A stretch of 64,000 nt of DNA from Croceimicrobium hydrocarbonivorans (lineage in GTDB: Bacteria > Bacteroidota > Bacteroidia > Flavobacteriales > Schleiferiaceae), in assembly GCF_014524565.1 (NCBI RefSeq), contig NZ_CP060139.1, positions 558,001-622,000 on the forward strand, read 5' to 3'. Below the pieces are notes generated by a model. The model was not told where the DNA came from. It saw only the letters and a list, made by a program, of their open reading frames with translations, and ran no database searches. Both the position numbers and the translations under genes were made by a program. Positions 5,586-60,242 of the stretch are shown here, in pieces; positions within the stretch are counted from its first letter, which is position 1, and every line of letters starts with the position of its first letter.

Positions 5586-6500
5586 TCAGGCCTTCACTAA
5601 TTTCAGGCGATATGCTATCATTATCAGAGGATACAAAATTAAGGTAGCCACTTTATATAAAAGGGGCTTTATTCCCGCCACTACTTTATTATAATTACTA
5701 TTAAGGATAATACTATGTAGAATATAACTAAGCAAAATGCGCATTCTGAACTTAATTGAAAAACGGGCTTCTTTGAAGAAGTCATTAATCCATACTTTCT
5801 GTTGCTCCACTACCGCTTGTGCTACCTGTGTTCTGGACCGCTTGGTAAGTGCATTGGCATTTTCATTTACAAAATAGGTGCGAGTTACCTTGCTGCTAAA
5901 TAAAAGATCATACTTCTTAGCAATCCGTCCCCAAACCAATCCTTCTGGGTAATAACGCAATTGATCTGTGTAAAATGGGTAGTCTTTTAGAATATCAGTT
6001 TTGTAGCATGGGAACCATTCTACTTGCCAAACGTACTTCTCAAAAACCTCGAAGAAATTGGCAATTTCATAATCTGCCGGGGCATTTTTCCCCACGAGCT
6101 TCCCGCTTTGCGTCATGCACTTAGTCCAAACTCCAGCAACTTTATCATTGTCGATGATTCTCTCACATTCCTCCCAAATCAATTGCAATCCTTTTTCATC
6201 GTAAAAGCGATCGTCATGACCTAAAGGAATAAAAAACTTTCCATGAGCGTGCTTTAGAGCAATATTGAAGTTTTCACTTATAAACTTATTGCTTTCGTTT
6301 TTGATGATTGTAACCTTCAAATTAGCCTTTTGCTGAAATCCATTTAGGATTTCGAGGGTGTTATCTGTAGAACAATCCTCTACTAAAAGCCATTCAAAAT
6401 CTTGAAATTCCTGCTCACTTAAACTATCGTATACCCTTTGAATAAAGCGCTCCGAATTATAGCAAGGGGTAAAAATCGTAAAGTAGGGTCTATCTTTCAT
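5586..6500 (-). CDS. glycosyltransferase family 2
   Basis: A 304-residue GT-A fold enzyme. The N-terminus PYFTIFTPCYNSERF is the typical GT2 start. WLLVEDCSTD carries the nucleotide-binding Asp, and the IPLGHDDRFYD segment contains the DxD-like metal site. The C-terminus has a hydrophobic stretch that may bring it to the inner membrane. It overlaps the upstream sulfotransferase gene by 11 bases, so the two are co-expressed. The sugar transferred is unknown. Confidence 0.9.
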   Translation of the reverse strand: MKDRPYFTIFTPCYNSERFIQRVYDSLSEQEFQDFEWLLVEDCSTDNTLEILNGFQQKANLKVTIIKNESNKFISENFNIALKHAHGKFFIPLGHDDRFYDEKGLQLIWEECERIIDNDKVAGVWTKCMTQSGKLVGKNAPADYEIANFFEVFEKYVWQVEWFPCYKTDILKDYPFYTDQLRYYPEGLVWGRIAKKYDLLFSSKVTRTYFVNENANALTKRSRTQVAQAVVEQQKVWINDFFKEARFSIKFRMRILLSYILHSIILNSNYNKVVAGIKPLLYKVATLILYPLIMIAYRLKLVKA

Positions 6501-7356
6501 AAGCTTCGATCCATTTGCGATCCATGATGTAATCTCGTACCCATAATCTCAACTTAAATATCCCTTCACTGAGTTGTTTTCGCGCTATGCAAAGGAAACG
6601 ATTTAGGATTTGCAGGCCATCCAGCTTTTGATTATCAATTATTCGATTAGACGATAGAGTCTTATACAATCTGTACCAGTCTTTTAAGTCTGAATTACGC
6701 AGGCTTTCTAAATCCTCCTGGCTAAAAGGAGTGCCTTCTGGAAGAAGCTTTGTACTGGACCGTGCTGTATCGCTGCCATGGAAATTCACAGAATTCTTAT
6801 TGAGCCAATAACTGCGTCGATCTTCTCTGTACTCCAATCCGGTGTATTCACACAACGCTTTTAATACCGAATCATCCTGTAACAATTCGTATAATGAGAG
6901 CACGAAGAATGTACCCTGGTAAATCTGGAAATAATCGCTGTAGTAATTCTTTACCAGCTTCTTATAGTTACTCACTCCTCGTTTTTGCAGGGAGCGCACC
7001 ATATCTTTTGGATGTTTGTAAATAAGAACACTCTTGAAGCTTACCTGAGGATTGGCTGCTTCCATTCTCGAATACCACAGAGGATCCTTAGAGCTATCAA
7101 TAAAGACATCGTACTCCTTAAAATATTGAAAAAGGTTGTCGTAAAAATTCTCTAGCCCCCCATCGTAAATTTTTTGCCAGCGATCATCGGAAGCAATTAA
7201 GTTTTTTCGGTCAAAGAGATGTTGCTTGCGATTGGGCTGAAAAAAAGCTTTGATTTCACCCAAGGCCAAAACATTGGCTTGATTCCCCAGAACCAGATTC
7301 AACAGAGTGGTACCGCTTCTAATGCAACCGCCGATATTTATAACTACTTTCTCCAT
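6490..7356 (-). CDS. sulfotransferase (PAPS-dependent)
   Basis: A 288-residue sulfotransferase-fold protein. The 5'-phosphosulfate loop is at the N-terminus (GGCIRSGTTLLN, residues 9-20). A 3'-phosphate-binding segment, YKHPKDMVRSLQKRG, lies mid-protein with the expected basic residue and Ser. Such enzymes move sulfate from PAPS to a hydroxyl or amine on a carbohydrate or lipid. Its position between the flippase gene (13-base overlap) and a GT2 gene (11-base overlap) argues for sulfation of the repeat unit. The acceptor is unknown. Confidence 0.85.
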   Translation of the reverse strand: MEKVVINIGGCIRSGTTLLNLVLGNQANVLALGEIKAFFQPNRKQHLFDRKNLIASDDRWQKIYDGGLENFYDNLFQYFKEYDVFIDSSKDPLWYSRMEAANPQVSFKSVLIYKHPKDMVRSLQKRGVSNYKKLVKNYYSDYFQIYQGTFFVLSLYELLQDDSVLKALCEYTGLEYREDRRSYWLNKNSVNFHGSDTARSSTKLLPEGTPFSQEDLESLRNSDLKDWYRLYKTLSSNRIIDNQKLDGLQILNRFLCIARKQLSEGIFKLRLWVRDYIMDRKWIEAYER

Positions 7357-17278: not shown

Positions 17279-19834
17279 TTACTTAATCAGTTTTTGAGTA
17301 AACACGGGGGCTTTCTTAGACTCCACCTTAAGGATATACACTCCAGCACTTAAGGCTGTGGTCAGGACTTCTTGCTCCTGAACTTCATCAAAATGACCTT
17401 GCCACACTAATTGACCGGCCTGATTAAACAGATACATATCTACCTGAGGAAGAGTTTGACCGCAAACTACTTTGAAACCATTCTCGGTATTGTAAGCGTA
17501 GTTGTTGTTTAGCGCCTGCTCCTTTACACTTACTCCGGTTTGATTGATGTGAATCACAAATCGATCCGCCAGGTTCCCAGGAACATGCATAAACTGATAG
17601 CTGCTGGTTTTTAAATCAACTCGAGTGCCGGTTAATTTATCCTCCAACTCCACTAACCAAGAAGCTGGTAAGCGTAAATCATTGATGCTGATAGTATAGG
17701 ACTGCTCTAATCCTGATTTAAAGGATAGATCTACTGATTTGCTGCTAAAAGATTCATTCAACTTATTAGCAAAGAATTGATCTCCATTCGCAGAAGTGGT
17801 ATACAAGCTGGGGTATAAAGTAGTGTTCATACGCTTTACAGCATCCAGACCATTATCCCATCCATCAGTGTACTGGCTACTGAAAGCCAAAAGGGTTTCA
17901 TCACTAATACCATCAGCAGAAGCCACCTTCAATTTCAGCACTTGAGCAGTGCTATTGGTTTTATTTTGCGATGGACTTTCAGTTAGAATGCGATCGGCAT
18001 TATCTAAAGCCAGATTGATACTTCCACTTCCGGTGTTCTGCACAAAAAAGGCTTGCATTGGCGCGATATACTGAGAACCGGAGTTTAGAGGACTGTCGGT
18101 ATTGGCATCGTAACCAATCCACTGACTACCATTATAGATATAGTAGGTAGAAGTTAAATCTGTACTATTAGCATCATGGTAAGTATTCCAATCTATTGCT
18201 GATGGATAAGGATTGGGAACCAAATTCCAACCGCTATTACTATTGTCCAAGGCGATATTGATCGCACCATCATTTAAGGCCGTACCACTGGCTGTTAAGG
18301 TAATGGGTAAGGTCCCGAAATAAGTACCATCTCCTAAATAAAGTCCAAAACCATTATCAGTAGTTGAGAAAGAGGTATTAGGAACTGCAGTCCAAGTTCC
18401 TTCTCCACTGTTTGCAGTGCTAGGATCGTAATAATAAATATTCACCTGATTGCTAGTACCTCCAGCACTGGTTATAATACTACCATCACTCACAGACCAA
18501 CCGGATACAGTTCCGCTGGAAATTGGGGATGCAGCGTAAAACCATCTACCGCTACCCGTAAAGGTGCGTTCAACATTAATAGTGTTGCCCCCAGAAACAG
18601 CTCCGATAATTTGGCCATAATTCCCACTATTGTCTGATTCCAATGTGGTTGTTCCACTTACCGTCAAGGTATTGCTATTGGTATTAAGGGTTGCTGAAGC
18701 ATTAACAGTAAGATCATTATTAGCAGTTACATTTTGGGCCATACCCACTGTAGCTGAGGTATTGCTTACAACCACATAATCAAAAGTGACAGGATCACTA
18801 GTGCCCCCCACACTTTGTGCTGCAGTACCATCAAAAAACACTGCACGACTATTATTAGTTAAAGTTCCTCCATTGAGATTGAAATCGCCTCCAACATATA
18901 AGTCACCTCCAGCGGTGCTGGATAAGCTCAAGGTACCGGAACTGCCAATGGTTACATCACCAGCAACATCAATCACATCCGAAGAAGCACCATAATCAAT
19001 AGTACCATCATTCACAATCATGTCATTCGCAATGGTCCAAGCACCTGATGCCGCTCTAGTAATAGATCGACCGGTACTATTCATGGTAAAGTCATAAACT
19101 GAAATCGAACCAAAGCCAGTAGCATCAGAGCTACCTACAAAGCAATAAGACTCTTGAGAAAATGGCGTGGTTGAAGATCCATCAGCGGTATTGCTTACAT
19201 TATAATAGCGAACATAGTCGGCACTAACCCCAGATGGATTGTTTGCAGGAATGCGAGCGAAGGTTCCACCGCCACCACCGGAGTAGGACATAAAACCAAC
19301 GAAGTTAAAGGCAGAAGGACGACCTGATCCGGTGATAGCCGACCATGGAATGGCAAATTCAGCCACATCATTGGCATCGCTAAAGTTTTTGGTCAATGTA
19401 CCGGTTGTTGAGGCTCCCCAGCTTCCTGCACCATCATCCGTTTTGTAATCATCATAGCTATCCTTGATGAAAGCGAAAAAGTCGGCTCGGAATGGAAAAT
19501 TAGGAGTTACCCCATCATAGCCCGTTCCGCTGGCAGTACCATTGGAATTAGAGCCTGAATTAATAGGACTCAAATTATCCACATCAATGTAAATCACAAT
19601 AGCATCGCCGAAATTGGTATGCCCGGATACACCGATGTATAAATTGCTATCATCCCAGGTAAGGTTCCACACCCGCGAATCGACAGTTACACTATGTGAA
19701 CTACCATATTCGCTTGCTCCGATTGTTCCATCGATAGTTGGTGTGGTAAATTGCCCGAATGAGGGGGAAACACCAAATAATAATGAGGCCAAGAGACCCA
19801 ATGTAAATTTGGCCTTAAAGTACTTATGCACCAT
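17279..19834 (-). CDS. T9SS type A secreted protein with CBM9-like N-terminal domain
   Basis: An 851-residue surface or secreted protein. The signal peptide ends near residue 27 (SPSFGQ). Residues 30-230 resemble a CBM9-like carbohydrate-binding domain (IDGTIGASEYG, WDDSNLYIGVSG, IVIYIDVDN). A Ser/Thr/Asn-rich beta-solenoid region follows, then the GWNLVPNPYPSAIDW module common in Bacteroidota surface proteins. The last ~75 residues form a type A sorting domain (QVDMYLFNQAGQLVW ... LSAGVYILKVES ... KLIK). It is therefore exported through Sec and then T9SS. Binding of the adjacent polysaccharide is possible but unproven. Confidence 0.82.
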   Translation of the reverse strand: MVHKYFKAKFTLGLLASLLFGVSPSFGQFTTPTIDGTIGASEYGSSHSVTVDSRVWNLTWDDSNLYIGVSGHTNFGDAIVIYIDVDNLSPINSGSNSNGTASGTGYDGVTPNFPFRADFFAFIKDSYDDYKTDDGAGSWGASTTGTLTKNFSDANDVAEFAIPWSAITGSGRPSAFNFVGFMSYSGGGGGTFARIPANNPSGVSADYVRYYNVSNTADGSSTTPFSQESYCFVGSSDATGFGSISVYDFTMNSTGRSITRAASGAWTIANDMIVNDGTIDYGASSDVIDVAGDVTIGSSGTLSLSSTAGGDLYVGGDFNLNGGTLTNNSRAVFFDGTAAQSVGGTSDPVTFDYVVVSNTSATVGMAQNVTANNDLTVNASATLNTNSNTLTVSGTTTLESDNSGNYGQIIGAVSGGNTINVERTFTGSGRWFYAASPISSGTVSGWSVSDGSIITSAGGTSNQVNIYYYDPSTANSGEGTWTAVPNTSFSTTDNGFGLYLGDGTYFGTLPITLTASGTALNDGAINIALDNSNSGWNLVPNPYPSAIDWNTYHDANSTDLTSTYYIYNGSQWIGYDANTDSPLNSGSQYIAPMQAFFVQNTGSGSINLALDNADRILTESPSQNKTNSTAQVLKLKVASADGISDETLLAFSSQYTDGWDNGLDAVKRMNTTLYPSLYTTSANGDQFFANKLNESFSSKSVDLSFKSGLEQSYTISINDLRLPASWLVELEDKLTGTRVDLKTSSYQFMHVPGNLADRFVIHINQTGVSVKEQALNNNYAYNTENGFKVVCGQTLPQVDMYLFNQAGQLVWQGHFDEVQEQEVLTTALSAGVYILKVESKKAPVFTQKLIK

Positions 19835-41079: not shown

Positions 41080-41547
41080 ATGGGTATTCAAGAAGAGATT
41101 AAGCAAAGCCATTTTAGAAACGCTTATCAAAAGGCTTTTTTAAATATTATGTACACTAATAACTGGCTCGACGAAAAAGTCCGAGGCATGCTTAGTGGAG
41201 AAGACCTCACTAAACAGCAGTTTAATGTTTTACGAATTTTAAGAGGTAGCTATCCAGAGCCCTTGAGTACCTTACAGATTCGAGAGCGTATGCTGGATAA
41301 AATGAGCGATACTTCTCGTATTGTAGATCGCTTAATCAAGAAAGAGTTTGTTTCCAAACAAACCTGCCCCAATGACAAGCGCCTGGTTGATGTGATTATT
41401 ACCGAAGCTGGCTTGGCTAAATTGGAAAGCATCGATCAAAGAGAATTTCGAATTGAAGAAACCTTTAGCAATCTTAGTGAAGAAGAAGCTAATCAGCTGA
41501 GTAATCTCTTGGATAAGATGCGGGAAAACAAAGAGGAAATGGCTTAA
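41080..41547 (+). CDS. MarR family transcriptional regulator
   Basis: A 155-residue winged-helix protein. The DNA-recognition region is LSTLQIRERMLDKMSDTSRIVDRLIKKEFVSKQ, followed by the wing Arg/Asp motif NDKRLVDVIITEAG, flanked by N- and C-terminal dimer helices. Few Cys residues are present: Cys98-type oxidation sensing is possible (QTCPNDKRL) but unproven. Divergent from DUF2851; its 3' end overlaps the 3' end of the convergent PKD-like gene by 4 bases. Confidence 0.92.
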   Translation: MGIQEEIKQSHFRNAYQKAFLNIMYTNNWLDEKVRGMLSGEDLTKQQFNVLRILRGSYPEPLSTLQIRERMLDKMSDTSRIVDRLIKKEFVSKQTCPNDKRLVDVIITEAGLAKLESIDQREFRIEETFSNLSEEEANQLSNLLDKMRENKEEMA

Positions 41548-42692
41548 TAATGCCAGATAGGGCCTAAGGTGGGCCTCCCTCTCACCCATGAAACTGCTTG
41601 CAAACCGGTAGTATCACCAGCACAACCATTGCCTGCAATTATCGATTGTATTTGCAGGGTTCGGGTTGTATCATATACGCCTAAGTTAAACAGGCTTATA
41701 CTATCCGTAAAGCTTTGGCTAAAAGTACTGTCACCATCAAAAAATGTTACCTCCCAAGGGCCTGTTGCCCCACCAAAAGTTAAAGTAGCAGTATGCATAT
41801 CGCCTTGACAGACCGAGTCTATACTCCAACTTAATGTAGGTGCCGGCAGCACATGCAAATTATATTCAACACTATAAGAAGTGGTATTGTAGGGAGGCTT
41901 AATTTCAGTGGCCTCTAAAATATAGTCCCCCGAAGCGGTAATATCCCAACGCACTCCTACTGTTGTATCCTCCTGACCATAAATCAATGTTGAATCTATC
42001 CTACCACCACTAGTACCTAAAAAAGTCCAGGTCCAATCAGAGCCTGAAACAGGGTATGGTACCGTATACAATTCATTAGCACCAGCACAGAGCGTATCAT
42101 AGATATTATCATCGGCCCTGCAATAACCATAACCATTGTCATTACCAGGGTCACTCATATCCTGGCCATCAATGTAAATGTCATCCACCATGGCAAAAGA
42201 GCTGCCCCCACTCGATATAAAATAAAAACGTAGGATATAAATTCCGGTAAACGTAACGGGCACTGCAGTTTGAATCACATTGGTAGGCGTTCCATTTGGA
42301 TAGGTTCCAGTAGCACTATCAATATAAACATGACTATGCAGTACTTGAACCAGATTTTCGTTTACATCCAATAATTGAATCTGTAACTCACGGTGAGTCC
42401 CATTGGCAAAGTCAAGCTTATGACGAAAGTCAATAAAACCCGAGCCATTGTATTCGATAATAGGGCTGGTGAAATGGTAGGCCGGATCTCCGTCTACTAC
42501 TTTACCAGTTAAGGCCTTTTTCTGGTTGGCAGAATTAATTGAATTCTTGGTGGTAATCTCCATGTCTTGCCATTGCCAGCAATCACCAATTTGGTTTACA
42601 CTTTGATTAAAATTCTGCACTACGGTTTGCCCTCTAAGCCCAAAGGCTAAGAGCATCCCTATCAAACCATATATCAGGCCAACCCTCCTCAT
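41544..42692 (-). CDS. secreted PKD-like protein with C-terminal GPIWHY, third gene of set
   Basis: A 382-residue exported protein. Signal peptide (LIGMLLAFGLRGQ) to about residue 22, a jelly-roll-like region (25-180, ending FAMVDDIYIDG), then two PKD/Ig-like domains (DTLCAGANELYTV from ~200 and DSVCQGDMHTATLTF from ~290). There is no T9SS sorting domain. The protein ends RPTLGPIWHY, nearly the same as the first gene of the set (KPSTGAIYHY), and the ~100 residues before it are homologous too. Its ATG overlaps the preceding stop (ATGA). Function unknown; surface adhesion or assembly is likely. Confidence 0.7.
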   Translation of the reverse strand: MRRVGLIYGLIGMLLAFGLRGQTVVQNFNQSVNQIGDCWQWQDMEITTKNSINSANQKKALTGKVVDGDPAYHFTSPIIEYNGSGFIDFRHKLDFANGTHRELQIQLLDVNENLVQVLHSHVYIDSATGTYPNGTPTNVIQTAVPVTFTGIYILRFYFISSGGSSFAMVDDIYIDGQDMSDPGNDNGYGYCRADDNIYDTLCAGANELYTVPYPVSGSDWTWTFLGTSGGRIDSTLIYGQEDTTVGVRWDITASGDYILEATEIKPPYNTTSYSVEYNLHVLPAPTLSWSIDSVCQGDMHTATLTFGGATGPWEVTFFDGDSTFSQSFTDSISLFNLGVYDTTRTLQIQSIIAGNGCAGDTTGLQAVSWVRGRPTLGPIWHY

Positions 42693-43735
42693 CGAATTAA
42701 GCTAAAGTAGTTGGTATAATAATGCGTCTCTCCCCGCTGGTTCTTAACCTCAACCTTAACGATATAGGTTCCTTCCGGACTCTTTTGACCGCTATTGGTT
42801 CCATCCCAGCCATGAACGGAATTATTGCTATCCCATTGGTAAACCATTTCACCCCAGCGATTGTAAATCGAGGCTAGAAAATAAGTCATACCAACTCCTT
42901 TAAATTTCCAAAGGTCATTTATGCCATCATCATTGGGCGTAAAGGCATTGGGAAAGAACACTTCAAATCGTTCATCAATATAAATATACTTATAGGCGGT
43001 ATCCGAACATAGGCCATTGTCCACAATTTGGAGAATCTCATGTTCACCAAAGTCTGTGAACTCTATCCTCGTAGCTGTACCTTGATCAAAATAGATTCGA
43101 TTAAGGTACCACTCAATTTGTGCCTGGCCACTGGCCCTTCCCTGGAAGAATAAATTGAGCAGATCACCATAGTACAAAGTGTCTGGAACATGGCTAATTC
43201 TCGCTTCAGGTTGATCATAAACCTGAATATCGAAAGCTATAGTATCGTTCTCGCAAGAACCATTTAAAGCAATGAGATAAGTGCTGGTATCGGACTGCGC
43301 TTGGAAGCTAATTACCCGATCCCGGGAACCACCCTTCCACATAAAGTCACCAATGATGGAACTCTCGAGCGTGACCCAATCTCCCTCGCAGGCTCTTTCC
43401 GGAAATTTAGCTAATGCTGTGCTTGGTGCGGTTACTCGAATTAACGCTAATGACGTATCTCCAGGACACAGTAAAGTATCCGAATAGGCGTAAACACTAA
43501 TTCCATGAACTCCGGCCGAGGCATTCGACCAATCAATTTGCACAACATTACTATCCGAGCGTCCTACTATCTTTCCTTGCCCCACGCTCCACTGATACTT
43601 CATGCCAGCTTGAAAAGGAACCGCCAAACGATTTGGCGGATCATAAATACATACCGTATCTAAGGCTTGCTGCGCAAAGCTCAGAGAAGCGTAAAGGGTA
43701 AGAACCAGAAGCCCTATGTACCCTTTACGATTCAA
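42689..43735 (-). CDS. gliding-associated T9SS type B secreted protein
   Basis: A 348-residue protein: signal peptide to about residue 22 (YASLSFAQ), a PKD-like domain (LDTVCIYDPP to about 110), a second Ig-like region, and the canonical type B sorting domain in the last ~90 residues (VFFPNAFTPNDDGINDLWKFKG, SIYNRWGEMVYQWDSNN, WDGTNSGQKSPEGTYIV). Type B proteins of this class usually need a PorP/SprF-like partner, which is not in the window. The start is TTG (43733-43735); no ATG precedes the signal peptide. Confidence 0.85.
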   Translation of the reverse strand: MNRKGYIGLLVLTLYASLSFAQQALDTVCIYDPPNRLAVPFQAGMKYQWSVGQGKIVGRSDSNVVQIDWSNASAGVHGISVYAYSDTLLCPGDTSLALIRVTAPSTALAKFPERACEGDWVTLESSIIGDFMWKGGSRDRVISFQAQSDTSTYLIALNGSCENDTIAFDIQVYDQPEARISHVPDTLYYGDLLNLFFQGRASGQAQIEWYLNRIYFDQGTATRIEFTDFGEHEILQIVDNGLCSDTAYKYIYIDERFEVFFPNAFTPNDDGINDLWKFKGVGMTYFLASIYNRWGEMVYQWDSNNSVHGWDGTNSGQKSPEGTYIVKVEVKNQRGETHYYTNYFSLIR

Positions 43736-43744
43736 GACTGCGGA

Positions 43745-44386
43745 TTAGTAATGGTAAATAGCTCCGGTGCTGGGTTTTGGATGAATGATAACTGGTGTAT
43801 TTGGTAATCCACTAGGATCAGCCGCACATCCGTTAGCATCAGTTAAACCGGTAACCGTAACTGTTTGACTGGTATTGTAATTAGGTAAGCTTACTACATA
43901 AGGTGTAGCATTCGCGGTGTCGGTAAAATTGGTTGAACCATCCGTGTAATCGATAATCCAAGGTGCAGTACCGGTTAAGGTAAAGGTTAAGCTTGCGCTG
44001 AAGCCCTCACAGACAGAGTCGGCCTGAATAGCCACTGTTGGCAGTGGATTAATCACAATGTTCAGGCTATTGGTATCACTGTAACAGCCATACTGATCCG
44101 ATTCTACCACATAAAGGGTATAAGTTCCGGCCACGACCCCCCAGTCGATTTCAATGGTTCCATTATTAGCACTTACGGTGCTATCAATGGTACCTGCAGT
44201 TGGGTCATTCAAAAACCAGCTGTAATGGCTGGTAGCTGCTGCTCCTGTTACACCATAAACTACATCGGTACTTCCCGCACAAACAGAGTCGGTGTAAGTA
44301 ACCTGTGCAGAAAGACTTTGTGCTGCCAATACTAAGATTAGCGAAATGCTCAATTTTCCGAAGAATGATTGAAGTAAAGTTTTCAT
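43745..44386 (-). CDS. secreted PKD-like protein with C-terminal GAIYHY, first gene of set
   Basis: A 213-residue protein with a signal peptide (LILVLAAQSLSAQ, to about residue 27) and two PKD/Ig-like domains (DSVCAGSTDVVYG and DSVCEGFSASLTF). It ends HPKPSTGAIYHY. The second domain aligns with that of the third gene (DSVC.G....LTF...G..PW......DG...F) up to the end. No sorting domain, so it may be periplasmic, bound to its type B neighbour, or exported by an unrecognised signal. It is 9 bases upstream of the type B gene. Confidence 0.7.
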   Translation of the reverse strand: MKTLLQSFFGKLSISLILVLAAQSLSAQVTYTDSVCAGSTDVVYGVTGAAATSHYSWFLNDPTAGTIDSTVSANNGTIEIDWGVVAGTYTLYVVESDQYGCYSDTNSLNIVINPLPTVAIQADSVCEGFSASLTFTLTGTAPWIIDYTDGSTNFTDTANATPYVVSLPNYNTSQTVTVTGLTDANGCAADPSGLPNTPVIIHPKPSTGAIYHY

Positions 44387-44833
44387 GAAATTGATTAGTT
44401 TTTAAAAATTTCTATCACGCAGTGGAAAACTCATCCTTCAATAAGATGGGGTTTAACTCGGTCCGGATCAAGCATTTTCCGGATCGGGTGTTTACCCTGC
44501 TTAAGCTTGCTTGATTGGTTGGTTGAACTAAACGGCCAGCTTATTAAAATTTGGGTTGTTCCTTTAAAATGAATTAGTTCGGCTAGTCCCCTTTCTCTAA
44601 TTCACAATCAAATGTGGATAAAAGAGATATATTCGCCGTAACTAGCTGATTTCAAAAGACTAAATCAAATAATAGTAGGAAATAAAGCGCTCGAACTATG
44701 CGCATTTACTGCTGATTTGCTCAATTTTAAAAGCTAAGTAGCTCAGGTTCAATATCGCGATATCTACGCAAAATGAACAGCCTGAAAACCCTTTTAACAT
44801 GGCGTTTTCAGGGATTTGAAGAAAAAGTGATAG
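44387..44833. other. 447-bp gene-free region with inverted repeats
   Basis: No credible coding region. Features seen: an imperfect 9-bp hairpin at 44459-44486 (CGGTCCGGA / TCCGGATCG); an 8-bp inverted repeat TGAATTAG / CTAATTCA at 44570-44604; a perfect 12-bp palindrome at 44752-44763 (ATATCGCGATAT); and a 9-bp hairpin at 44781-44812 near the pyrF end. It must contain the promoter of the PKD-like set, but no clear TAnnTTTG element on the minus strand was found. A structured leader or small RNA is possible but not demonstrated. Confidence 0.5.
44781..44812 (-). terminator. candidate weak terminator after pyrF
   Basis: CCTGAAAAC pairs with GTTTTCAGG around a 14-base loop, 22 bases downstream of the pyrF stop. 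The following minus-strand bases are only moderately T-rich (CTGTTCATTTTG), so efficiency is doubtful. Confidence 0.4.
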
Positions 44834-57470: not shown

Positions 57471-60242
57471 ATGCGCACCTTTATCTCCTGTTTACTACTC
57501 ATTTTTCTTCAATTTCAAATGAGTGCTCAGCTTCGCTTTTCCTTTGAGCAACAGATCAATACCAAAGTTTACCATGGTACTGATACCGTACCTAACCCTT
57601 GGGCAGGTGGATTAAATTATCCAATTTTCAACAATTTGGATTTTAACTTCGATGGACTCACTGATCTTTTAGTTTTCGATCGAAGTGGAAAAAGACTTTT
57701 ACCCATGATGTGGGAGCTGGTAAACGGAGATAATGTTTTGCGCTATCATCCTGAGTATATAAAACACTTCCCCTTTCCTCGAGGTGAAGGGGCCTTTATT
57801 TTACTGCGCGATTACAATTGCGATGGCCTAAACGACATCTTTTATTCCGATGGTTCCTTTATATATGTATATGAGAACACCAGTTCCAATGGTCAACTGA
57901 GCTTTAGCATCGCCAACAATGGTCAACATTTAGACACGGATTATTTAGCCTCTGGAGTTTCCAAGCTCTATATCTCACGCGCCGACATGCCCGACATAAA
58001 TGATGTGGATGGCGATGGAGACCTCGATATTTTAACTTTTGGCAATGGCGGCGTTCAAGTAGAATTTCATGAAAACACCAGTCCTTGCGGACTTAATTTT
58101 GTTCAAACCGGTAATTGCTGGGGTTTATTTAAGGAAGGGGGCATTTATCGTTCTGTCATCTTAAATCACTGCACCGGTGGCAATAAAAGAAGTTTAGGCT
58201 CCGGATCTGGTAAAGTTTTGCATACCGGTAGCGCCATGCTTAGCTGGGATTTGGATAATGACAATGTTGTTGATTTACTGCTATCCAATGTTTCGTACAA
58301 CAACCTATCTGCTTTAAGCAATGGTGGTACGCTCGATTCATCAGCCATGGTGGCTCAAGACACCATGTATCCACCATCACATCCTGTTGACCTATTTAAT
58401 TTCCCGGCTTCTTTTAGAGCCGAAACCGGAACCGATGGTGTGGATGATTTAGTATTGAGTAGCTTTAGTTCAGCTACTAGCGGCAGTCCGGATATGTCCT
58501 CAAATCATAGAGGGATATGGCATTATAAAAATACCGGCACCAATACACAACCCAATTTTGTTTTCACAGAAGATAATTATCTGCAAGGCGATATGGTAGA
58601 CCCCGGCGCTGCTTCAACACCTCGCTTGGTGGATTTAAATGGGGATAGTTTAATGGATTTAGTCTTGAGTGTTGGTAACCGCTTCATGCAACCCGGCTTT
58701 TCGAACTCCCAACTTTATTACTATGAAAACACTGGTACGGCCCAGCAAGCTGAATTTACCCTGATCGACACAAATTTCGCAGATATTCTTTCCCTCAATT
58801 TAGGAACTGAAATTGTTCCTGCCTTTGGCGATTTGGATGGAGATGGAGATCAAGACTTGATTGTTGGTGCTAACAGTGGCTATTTCCATTATTTAAAAAA
58901 TACTGGCTCTGCTAGTTCACCATCTTTTACCATAGATACATATATCATCACCAATACAGATGTTGGTGCTAATGCTGCACCTTATTTATTTGATCTGGAT
59001 GATGATGGTGACTTAGACCTCTTTGTAGGAAACCAACAAGGACATATTTATTGGTTTGATAATAGCTCAGCCAGTACGCCTAATTTCAGTCAAAAATCAA
59101 GCTTCTTTGGAGCGGTAAATGTTTCTGCTCAAAACCTGTCGGGAAATGCCGTTCCCGTTTTTTATAGAGACAGCACTGGCACTACTTCCTTATTTGTAGG
59201 ATCTAGAAGTTTGGGTGTGGTGCAGTTTGATGAAGTAGATACTGTTTCTCAATTACCCAGCTCAATTAGTGATACAATTGGAAATGCTAGCAAGCAAAGC
59301 CTGAATAATAATGAAAGCCCATTCGGCATAAGCAAGCGCAGTGGCCGAAATCAATTCTTAATTCTTGCCTCCGAACTGCAAGCCAAAGGTTACCTCAATG
59401 GATATATTGAAAGCATTGGCTTTAACATTGTTGACAAAGGCGGTTCTGTTCTAACCAATGGTTTTACGGTGAAGATGAAAAACACCAGCGCTACCAGTTT
59501 AAACGCCTTTGAAGACAATTTCCCTTATCCTTATCCTTTAGAAAATTACATCTACAATTTCGGTAATGGCTGGAATACTATCCCCTTACAATATCCACAT
59601 GCCTGGGATGGACAATCTAATTTGCTAATTGAAGTTTGCTTTAGCGGAAACTTCCCAGCCAGCAATATTCATGTTTCGATGACAGACGAAGGCTTTAATT
59701 GCCATGCCTACGGGGACATCACCGGATTTAACACACAGTCGGCAAATGGTTGTGCAATGCCATATTTACAGACTATTCAAAAGCGCCCGGATATTCGTCT
59801 GAGCCTCACCCCTGCTTTGATTCCGGTTCCGGCTGCTCAGCACCATGACTTGTATATTGGGGAACGTACCACTGCCGACTTTGCCGATCTTAATGGTGAT
59901 GGTTATCTGGATGCAGTAGTAGGAAATTTAAGCGGAGGATTGAGTTTATTCTATGGAAATGAATACACTTTTTCCACACCCGAAATCTCCAAGGAATCAA
60001 GCTTTGTAAGCATTTATCCCAACCCCAATAATGGCGCCTTTCAAATTGACTTAGCAGCGGATGTCCTTGCTGAGTATTCAAATCTCCGCATCTTCAATAC
60101 TCAAGGGCAACAAGTTTTTAGTCAGGAAATTAGCTCCGACACTGAAATCAGATTAAATAAAAATCTGACCGATGGATTGTACATCGGTATAATTGAAGGC
60201 CCAAGTGATCGGAAGACTTTCAGGTTTATCCTCAAACATTAG
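57471..60242 (+). CDS. T9SS type A secreted protein with VCBS/FG-GAP repeats
   Basis: A 923-residue secreted protein. A signal peptide (LLLIFLQFQMSAQ, to about residue 20) is followed by at least eight Ca-binding-type repeats (DFNFDGLTD, DYNCDGLND, DVDGDGDLD, DLDNDNVVD, DLNGDSLMD, DLDGDGDQD, DLDDDGDLD, DLNGDGYLD), which form a beta-propeller. A jelly-roll-like insert lies around 600-790. The final 75 residues are a type A sorting domain (IYPNPNNGAFQIDL ... LRIFNTQGQQVFSQEI ... LTDGLYIGIIEG). Probably an adhesive surface protein. Confidence 0.87.
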   Translation: MRTFISCLLLIFLQFQMSAQLRFSFEQQINTKVYHGTDTVPNPWAGGLNYPIFNNLDFNFDGLTDLLVFDRSGKRLLPMMWELVNGDNVLRYHPEYIKHFPFPRGEGAFILLRDYNCDGLNDIFYSDGSFIYVYENTSSNGQLSFSIANNGQHLDTDYLASGVSKLYISRADMPDINDVDGDGDLDILTFGNGGVQVEFHENTSPCGLNFVQTGNCWGLFKEGGIYRSVILNHCTGGNKRSLGSGSGKVLHTGSAMLSWDLDNDNVVDLLLSNVSYNNLSALSNGGTLDSSAMVAQDTMYPPSHPVDLFNFPASFRAETGTDGVDDLVLSSFSSATSGSPDMSSNHRGIWHYKNTGTNTQPNFVFTEDNYLQGDMVDPGAASTPRLVDLNGDSLMDLVLSVGNRFMQPGFSNSQLYYYENTGTAQQAEFTLIDTNFADILSLNLGTEIVPAFGDLDGDGDQDLIVGANSGYFHYLKNTGSASSPSFTIDTYIITNTDVGANAAPYLFDLDDDGDLDLFVGNQQGHIYWFDNSSASTPNFSQKSSFFGAVNVSAQNLSGNAVPVFYRDSTGTTSLFVGSRSLGVVQFDEVDTVSQLPSSISDTIGNASKQSLNNNESPFGISKRSGRNQFLILASELQAKGYLNGYIESIGFNIVDKGGSVLTNGFTVKMKNTSATSLNAFEDNFPYPYPLENYIYNFGNGWNTIPLQYPHAWDGQSNLLIEVCFSGNFPASNIHVSMTDEGFNCHAYGDITGFNTQSANGCAMPYLQTIQKRPDIRLSLTPALIPVPAAQHHDLYIGERTTADFADLNGDGYLDAVVGNLSGGLSLFYGNEYTFSTPEISKESSFVSIYPNPNNGAFQIDLAADVLAEYSNLRIFNTQGQQVFSQEISSDTEIRLNKNLTDGLYIGIIEGPSDRKTFRFILKH

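Follow-up and report, generated by a model that had tools for sequence, protein, structure and literature searches.

Conserved C-Terminal Tails on Exported Proteins Beside a Type B Carrier in Croceimicrobium hydrocarbonivorans: A Possible Split Surface Adhesin

Introduction

Cargo of the type IX secretion system (T9SS) is today recognized by its C-terminal domain (CTD). How exported proteins that lack such a domain might reach their place, and why two of them should end in nearly the same ten residues, are questions raised by a stretch of 64,000 nucleotides from Croceimicrobium hydrocarbonivorans (contig NZ_CP060139.1, positions 558,001 to 622,000 of the forward strand; the whole stretch is called the window below). 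Three genes, A, B, and C, form a tight minus-strand set there, in which A and C carry the shared ending, or tail, and B carries a type B CTD. An earlier note on this DNA had suggested that the tail is an unrecognized docking, sorting, or strand-complementation signal, with B as the carrier. The comparison reported here supports the following description: the tail is a conserved, position-specific C-terminal element on exported, CTD-less proteins, encoded beside a type B protein in several families.

According to the available passages of the relevant papers, the T9SS described thus far comprises CTD types A, B, and C, with CTD-bearing adhesins that occur together with PorP/SprF proteins (PMC10202324, PMC9143113, PMC12618676, PMC10994853, PMC12635249). 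Type B CTD substrates with PorP/SprF partners, as these passages present them, include the SprB-SprF and PG1035-PorP pairs (PMC9143113, PMC12618676), and type B proteins that are orphans, their shuttle being distant, also appear in them (PMC12618676). No tail of the present kind was described in the literature found by our search, which covered titles, abstracts, and passages, with subscription papers and preprints outside its coverage.

The Gene Set and Its C-Terminal Tails

The features of the set are listed below in window coordinates, with immunoglobulin-like domains given as Ig-like, open reading frames as ORFs, and AlphaFold2 models as AF2 models.

43745..44386, minus strand: gene A, 213 aa; signal peptide, two Ig/PKD-like domains, and C-terminal tail (ORF and AF2 model)
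43748..43777, minus strand: tail of A, KPSTGAIYHY at the stop codon (sequence, alignment, and AF2 model)
44042..44305, minus strand: N-terminal Ig-like "socket" domain of A, about residues 28-115 (profile match; boundaries approximate)
42689..43735, minus strand: gene B, 348 aa, TTG start; carrier with T9SS type B CTD (Pfam, NCBIfam, and AF2 model)
43421..43672, minus strand: N-terminal Ig-like "socket" of B, about residues 22-105, candidate tail receptor (profile; putative function)
42692..42955, minus strand: type B CTD of B, residues 261-348 (PF13585 at 261-343, TIGR04131 at 261-348)
41544..42692, minus strand: gene C, 382 aa; signal peptide, N-terminal domain with no Pfam match, two A-homologous Ig-like domains, and tail
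41547..41576, minus strand: tail of C, RPTLGPIWHY at the stop codon (sequence and alignment)
44387..44833, no strand: intergenic stretch upstream of A, the site of gene D in six relatives (comparison of regions)

The three frames, their strand, and their coordinates, all given by the earlier note, were confirmed by an ORF check. Because A and B are separated by only 9 bases and the stop of B overlaps the start of C as ATGA, the set is operon-like. Protein A ends in ...HPKPSTGAIYHY and protein C in ...RGRPTLGPIWHY, each followed directly by TAA, so that both endings reported previously are read immediately before the stop. Over the whole 4.04 Mb genome, the DNA pattern GxxI[YFW]HY-stop has two matches, the ends of A and C, versus one in the reversed control.

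Among the three proteins, the type B domain is found only in B, the middle one, as the note had stated (PF13585, 3.7e-16; TIGR04131, 5e-16; both above cut-off). Likewise, A and C were correctly described as lacking a known sorting domain, since neither matched the type A, B, or C CTD models of Pfam and NCBIfam at E<=1; the match of A to PKD_6 (17.2 bits) is under the Pfam cut-off of 25. An end-to-end alignment of A and C over their final ~186 residues has 30% identity (E=1e-22). The homology claimed for the part preceding the ending thus stands, but its length of about 100 residues does not, as two Ig-like domains are involved. The N-terminus of B is also similar to the first domain of A (E=2e-4).

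Conservation Within the Family

Full-length A occurs together with B in 13 of the 88 genomes of the family, the own genome included, and the A genes number 14 because G018 holds two copies of the set. The closest named records by protein A belong to a UBA7878 metagenome-assembled genome (MAG; 100%) and to Owenweeksia and Cryomorphaceae MAGs (six loci, two of them weak). B directly follows A except in G025, in which a C-type gene lies in between. All 14 A genes encode the ending I-[YF]-H-[YF] within 2 residues of the stop, one with an extra Q, and I210 and H212 are invariant in a 13-row alignment that leaves out the G014 copy, whose protein is identical. Among C-type genes, the tail is retained in 8 of the 10 aligned rows; the invariance that had been claimed for the extreme C-terminus therefore holds for A and is weaker for C.

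Some C-type genes keep the tail when other parts are gone. One is a C paralogue (L063:6919-7857) that ends in KPISGPIYHY although its last Ig domain is missing. G016, in which A and B were not found, has only a 55-residue remnant of C, with the tail, near the old place:

L077, about 6947-7111 (G016:C1:1604946-1605110): C remnant, 67% identity over the last 55 residues

Four regions chosen for the N-terminal domain of C (L078-L081) contain no tail.

In six genomes, a further gene of about 455 aa, D, lies upstream of A. All six D proteins match Pfam IgGFc_binding, a family unrelated to A and C, and all six end in T[ED]xI[YF]H[FY], followed by one further residue at most. The tail on D, together with that on the C paralogue without the last Ig domain, indicates that it does not simply come with the Ig fold. 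In the own genome and the six genomes of the own genus, scoring of the top candidates per genome gave no D-type match at E<=1e-10.

A One-Chain Counterpart

The closest D-like sequences outside f1 belong to family f8 (E-values of 1.4e-137 to 1.9e-143). These are chains of 1254-1255 aa that combine IgGFc_binding, Ig/PKD, and CHU_C domains, and no tail is present in any of the three full chains:

L280:2669-6433, L281:4227-7994, L282:2973-6737: one-chain f8 proteins

A fourth chain, whose start is cut, reads by eye from a D-like part through a type B-like end. By a Rosetta-stone argument, the one-chain protein suggests that D, A, and B work together in a single structure. A PorP/SprF gene following the f8 chain was considered and dropped, as the following genes of ~300 aa (L280, L282) had no Pfam match.

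Tailed Clusters in Other Families

A profile of A was run over 395 genomes of the class, and regions were fetched in sets of 20, 8 (one of them a dummy), and 12. Among the matches listed, tailed proteins with a CTD carrier were detected in f18, f20, f26, f53, f70, f72, and f42, which gives at least eight families including the own one. The usual cluster contains one to three tailed proteins of varied domains (PKD_6, Ig_7, PKD_4, LTD+TIG, CUB, and IgGFc_binding in Pfam) and one CTD-bearing carrier. The endings are of the I-x-H-(D/N/Y) kind, such as IFHN twice in L175, IFHD/IYHD in L177, IYHD, IYHD, and IFHD in L221, and IYH and IYHY in L166, or AN/TPTN variants, such as IIAN/INAN in L172 and L174 and ITPTN/LTPTN in L176. 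Genome G408 has two clusters, one with IFHD twice and a type B carrier (L178), and the other as follows:

L173:5606-8104: IQHKD/IQHRN cluster around a type A CTD carrier

No tail was found in regions L179, L180, L224, L226, L227, and L228, and L171 is cut by a contig end. As a separate observation, a DUF6588 (PF20230) gene (L174:10164-11339) adjoins the IIAN/INAN cluster, and a gene with a similar ending lies beside the L172 cluster.

The position of the tail was assessed with a regular expression that was set post hoc, after inspection, and applied to 774 distinct ORFs of the fetched regions. It matched at 61 ORF ends, 3 of which represent one unrelated family ending in LIHKK/N. The remaining 58, which include the near-identical G014 copy of C, an unlinked C-type gene (L075), and a few genes with no carrier in sight (L169, L271, L274), compare with 2.0 terminal matches expected by composition and 1.9 by the internal rate. 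D tails and the AN/TPTN variants fall outside this expression. Inside the 61 proteins, only 4 of 27,737 positions matched, under the overall internal rate of 245/299,309. With the proline context added, the motif was terminal in 49 genes and internal in 1 (an unrelated ORF in L273) among 807 ORFs; a looser count, with overlapping loci included, gave 47 terminal and 25 internal matches in 763 ORFs. The nearest internal look-alike, TTG[TA]ITH in IgGFc-type proteins (L111, L112, L114, L116), is without the proline.

Carriers and the N-Terminal Ig-Like Domain

A T9SS CTD was detected in none of 27 distinct tailed proteins, some of which were scanned against one library only, and no carrier ends in a tail. 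The clusters with a CTD-bearing carrier number 32, without the G014 copy, and the carrier is of type B in 31 and of type A in one (L173; PF18962, 1.4e-11). Tail-ending proteins beside type B genes, the first check proposed by the earlier note, are therefore found in several families, and the co-localization that it expected is seen across them. Pfam CHU_C was matched in 25/25 carriers of alignment A5, as well as in those of L177, L178, L221, L222, L223, and L270. In f18/f20, each of the six type B clusters has a PorP_SprF gene after its carrier (L175, L177, L178, L221, L222, L223). Elsewhere in the own genome, a PorP_SprF match at G000:C1:187254-188625 (L004, L284) adjoins a large frame that itself shows an Ig-like match to A, and it may be a possible shuttle for B.

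The socket profile was built from the N-terminal domain of B and widened to 31 seeds, for which it is circular. By hand tally, 32/32 carriers have an Ig-like domain immediately after the signal peptide, and the same N-terminal domain is present in the gene just upstream of the carrier in 28/32, the exceptions being L070, L172, L174, and L173 (in the last, the neighbor is cut by the contig end). In proteins of the D, U, E, C, S1, and R1 types, this domain is not N-terminal, although it is internal in some. PKD_6 was matched at E<=0.001 in 14 of 25 carriers. The +1 glutamine of the Bacteroidetes Q-rule (PMC5837995) was used to place the cleavage site. From this presumed Q to the D of DTxC, there are 3-6 residues in the 24/25 carriers that have such a Q, ambiguously in some rows (one could read 8), and 2 residues in three f18 carriers. 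A carrier domain that lacks strand A is only hinted at.

Structural Models

Both AF2 models are of single chains. The model of A (mean pLDDT, the per-residue model confidence, 86.7) has two beta domains, and its fold is predicted to be Ig-like. Its tail has no secondary structure, with block mean pLDDT values of 84 (201-210) and 71 (211-213). B is modeled as all-beta past the signal peptide (pLDDT 90.4). In Foldseek searches, fragments of GhpA, the Aureispira grappling hook protein (PDB 9flp-9fly, 9g8b), were among the best matches for A and B, with 19-29% identity for the Ig-like domains of A. The B profile matched GhpA at 1.5e-81, with the best stretch at 5799-5886 of 5898, and the A profile did not reach it by sequence. 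By eye, the interdomain sequence NPLPTVAIQ resembles the tail HPKPSTGAIYH; the tail may thus correspond to a linker together with the first strand of an Ig domain that would come next, left as an orphan.

Neighboring Genes and Other Features

A gene that we take to be pyrF-like adjoins the set in the window and in the regions of 12 relatives, and a presumably MarR-like gene adjoins it in L062-L070 and not in L071-L073. Elsewhere in the window, 57471-60242 encodes an ordinary T9SS cargo, a protein of FG-GAP repeats whose sorting domain is of type A (PF18962), and 17279-19834 is an 851 aa ORF with no Pfam match, for which several fetched regions contain distant BLAST matches (22-27%).

Discussion

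With regard to the function of the tail, the best explanation, to which we give about an even chance, is that it plugs into an N-terminal Ig-like domain and that the genes encode an adhesin split among several chains and exported or anchored through one carrier. The tail, its terminal position, the co-localization, the N-terminal domain of the carriers, and the one-chain counterpart are observed; docking, partner, and co-export are what we infer. In such a scheme, A, B, and C would be subunits of one multi-protein cell-surface structure, each exported by Sec to judge solely from the signal-peptide-like N-termini. B, the sole holder of a T9SS sorting domain, would be the base that passes the translocon, and it could be held at the surface by a PorP/SprF-type barrel, as known for type B proteins. 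In place of a CTD, A and C, and in relatives D and others, would use the tail of about 10 residues, typically P-x-x-[TS]-x-I-x-H-x. Without a covalent bond, the free tail may dock on the Ig-like domain with which mature B or A begins, probably by adding an edge strand to it, and the putative order would run from the distal subunit to A and then to B. The tail would thereby substitute for the covalent linker of the one-chain f8 version, and the CTD-less modules would be exported with, or captured by, one carrier.

Several results weigh against this explanation. The f26 regions L162 and L169 have tailed genes and no nearby carrier, the carriers being elsewhere in the same genomes (L174 and L172, respectively). 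Three genomes of the family (L071-L073) have A-B without a linked distal gene, and two C-type genes there, unlinked to A-B (L074, L076), have no tail. By hand count, the number of tails equals that of N-terminal sockets in only 20 of 32 clusters, with one tail fewer in 5 and one more in 7. No PorP/SprF gene lies beside the operon or in the window, and three PorP_SprF genes are found elsewhere in the genome. The model of B includes a first strand in the N-terminal domain (residues 24-29) and thus gives no clear sign that one is missing.

The same holds for two tests on a broader scale. The pattern T-x-x-I-[YF]-H-[NDY]-stop has 75 sites in the 395 genomes versus 53 in the reversed control (a figure summed by eye), a modest excess; 17 of the 75 are in clusters already known and 58 outside. 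Among 12 regions fetched from pattern sites, L270 and L271 are new tailed clusters at the matching sites (in L271, the contig ends before any carrier), L274 has tailed genes whose tail is not the matching site, and the other nine have no tailed gene. In addition, the likeness of tails within a cluster, for hand-chosen tails that include two clusters without a carrier, exceeded an all-data shuffle (0/5000) but not a shuffle inside families (912/5000). It may therefore reflect lineage drift, and a matching of tails per cluster beyond lineage was dropped as not significant.

It is possible, though rather doubtful, that a general "CTD in trans" operates in Bacteroidota, in which CTD-less adhesin modules of unrelated families would be loaded by their tails on the N-terminal Ig-like socket of one T9SS carrier. 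A surface fiber of several subunits would then be exported and anchored by means of one sorting domain, with tail-socket codes that differ between the clusters of one cell.

In another explanation, the tail would itself act as a T9SS sorting signal of a new and very short kind, which the translocon or a PorV/PorP-type shuttle would read directly, and the type B protein would be no more than a neighbor of related function. This appears unlikely. Known CTDs are folded domains, and the type B and C signals are located in about the last 100 residues or more (PMC10202324, PMC10994853); moreover, a CTD-bearing carrier adjoins the tails in 32 clusters, and the two clusters of G408, with different tails and carrier types, point to local partners. 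On the other side, the tail is strictly C-terminal, like T9SS signals, and occurs on exported proteins with no detected CTD, and the tailed genes of L162 and L169 without a nearby carrier would fit such a signal.

Quite unlikely, in our estimate, is that the tail binds another surface or outer-membrane partner, such as PorP/SprF or lipopolysaccharide, or mediates homotypic polymerization by donor-strand exchange. The PorP/SprF genes that follow the carrier in the six f18/f20 clusters speak for the former, as does, by eye, the resemblance of the tail to a linker plus the first strand of a following Ig domain for this group of explanations as a whole, whereas the window contains no PorP/SprF gene. 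Since tails occur on proteins both with and without an N-terminal Ig domain of the socket kind, homotypic exchange cannot be general. Finally, that the ending merely closes a common Ig fold as its last strand or cap, as the earlier note had named among the outcomes that would count against its proposal, or is a relic of shared A/C descent with no separate role, is highly improbable despite the homology of A and C over their last ~186 residues, because the same kind of ending is found on D and on proteins of varied domains, is kept where the last Ig domain is absent, has internal copies at or under background, and is without secondary structure in the model of A.

If a short tail indeed lets CTD-less proteins ride with, or bind, a carrier, many Bacteroidota would have more surface proteins than are now counted, and PKD, Ig, CUB, and IgGFc proteins with no known sorting signal would gain a likely place. 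A compact peptide tag for multi-part surface structures would also become testable in a laboratory strain.

Comparison with Known Systems

The proposed split adhesin has functional analogues, and no more than that, in donor-strand pili, dockerin-cohesin pairs, and sortase tails, in which a short or small terminal element joins exported subunits. Among T9SS systems, it resembles the type B/PorP-SprF pairs in the type B CTD of B and in the PorP/SprF gene after the carrier in six f18/f20 clusters. It differs from them in that the adhesin itself has the CTD in those pairs, as far as the source passages go, whereas here several CTD-less, adhesin-like proteins share a short tail. The sprC-sprD-sprB-sprF locus of flavobacteria is similar in that genes for several exported proteins accompany a barrel-like gene and one for a giant type B-like protein. 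SprC and SprD as tailed proteins were nevertheless rejected: in five SprB-repeat regions, the two upstream genes, which we take to be sprC and sprD by position, end in GSITVLK/GTITVIR-like or in VKIEK, RLKKSS, and RVRPN-like sequences. GhpA is among the closest solved relatives, but it is deposited as a single chain of 5898 residues, while the system of the window is split into separate tailed proteins. The f8 protein shares the D-like domain and the type B CTD with the tailed clusters and differs from them by the fusion of these parts in one chain, without a tail.

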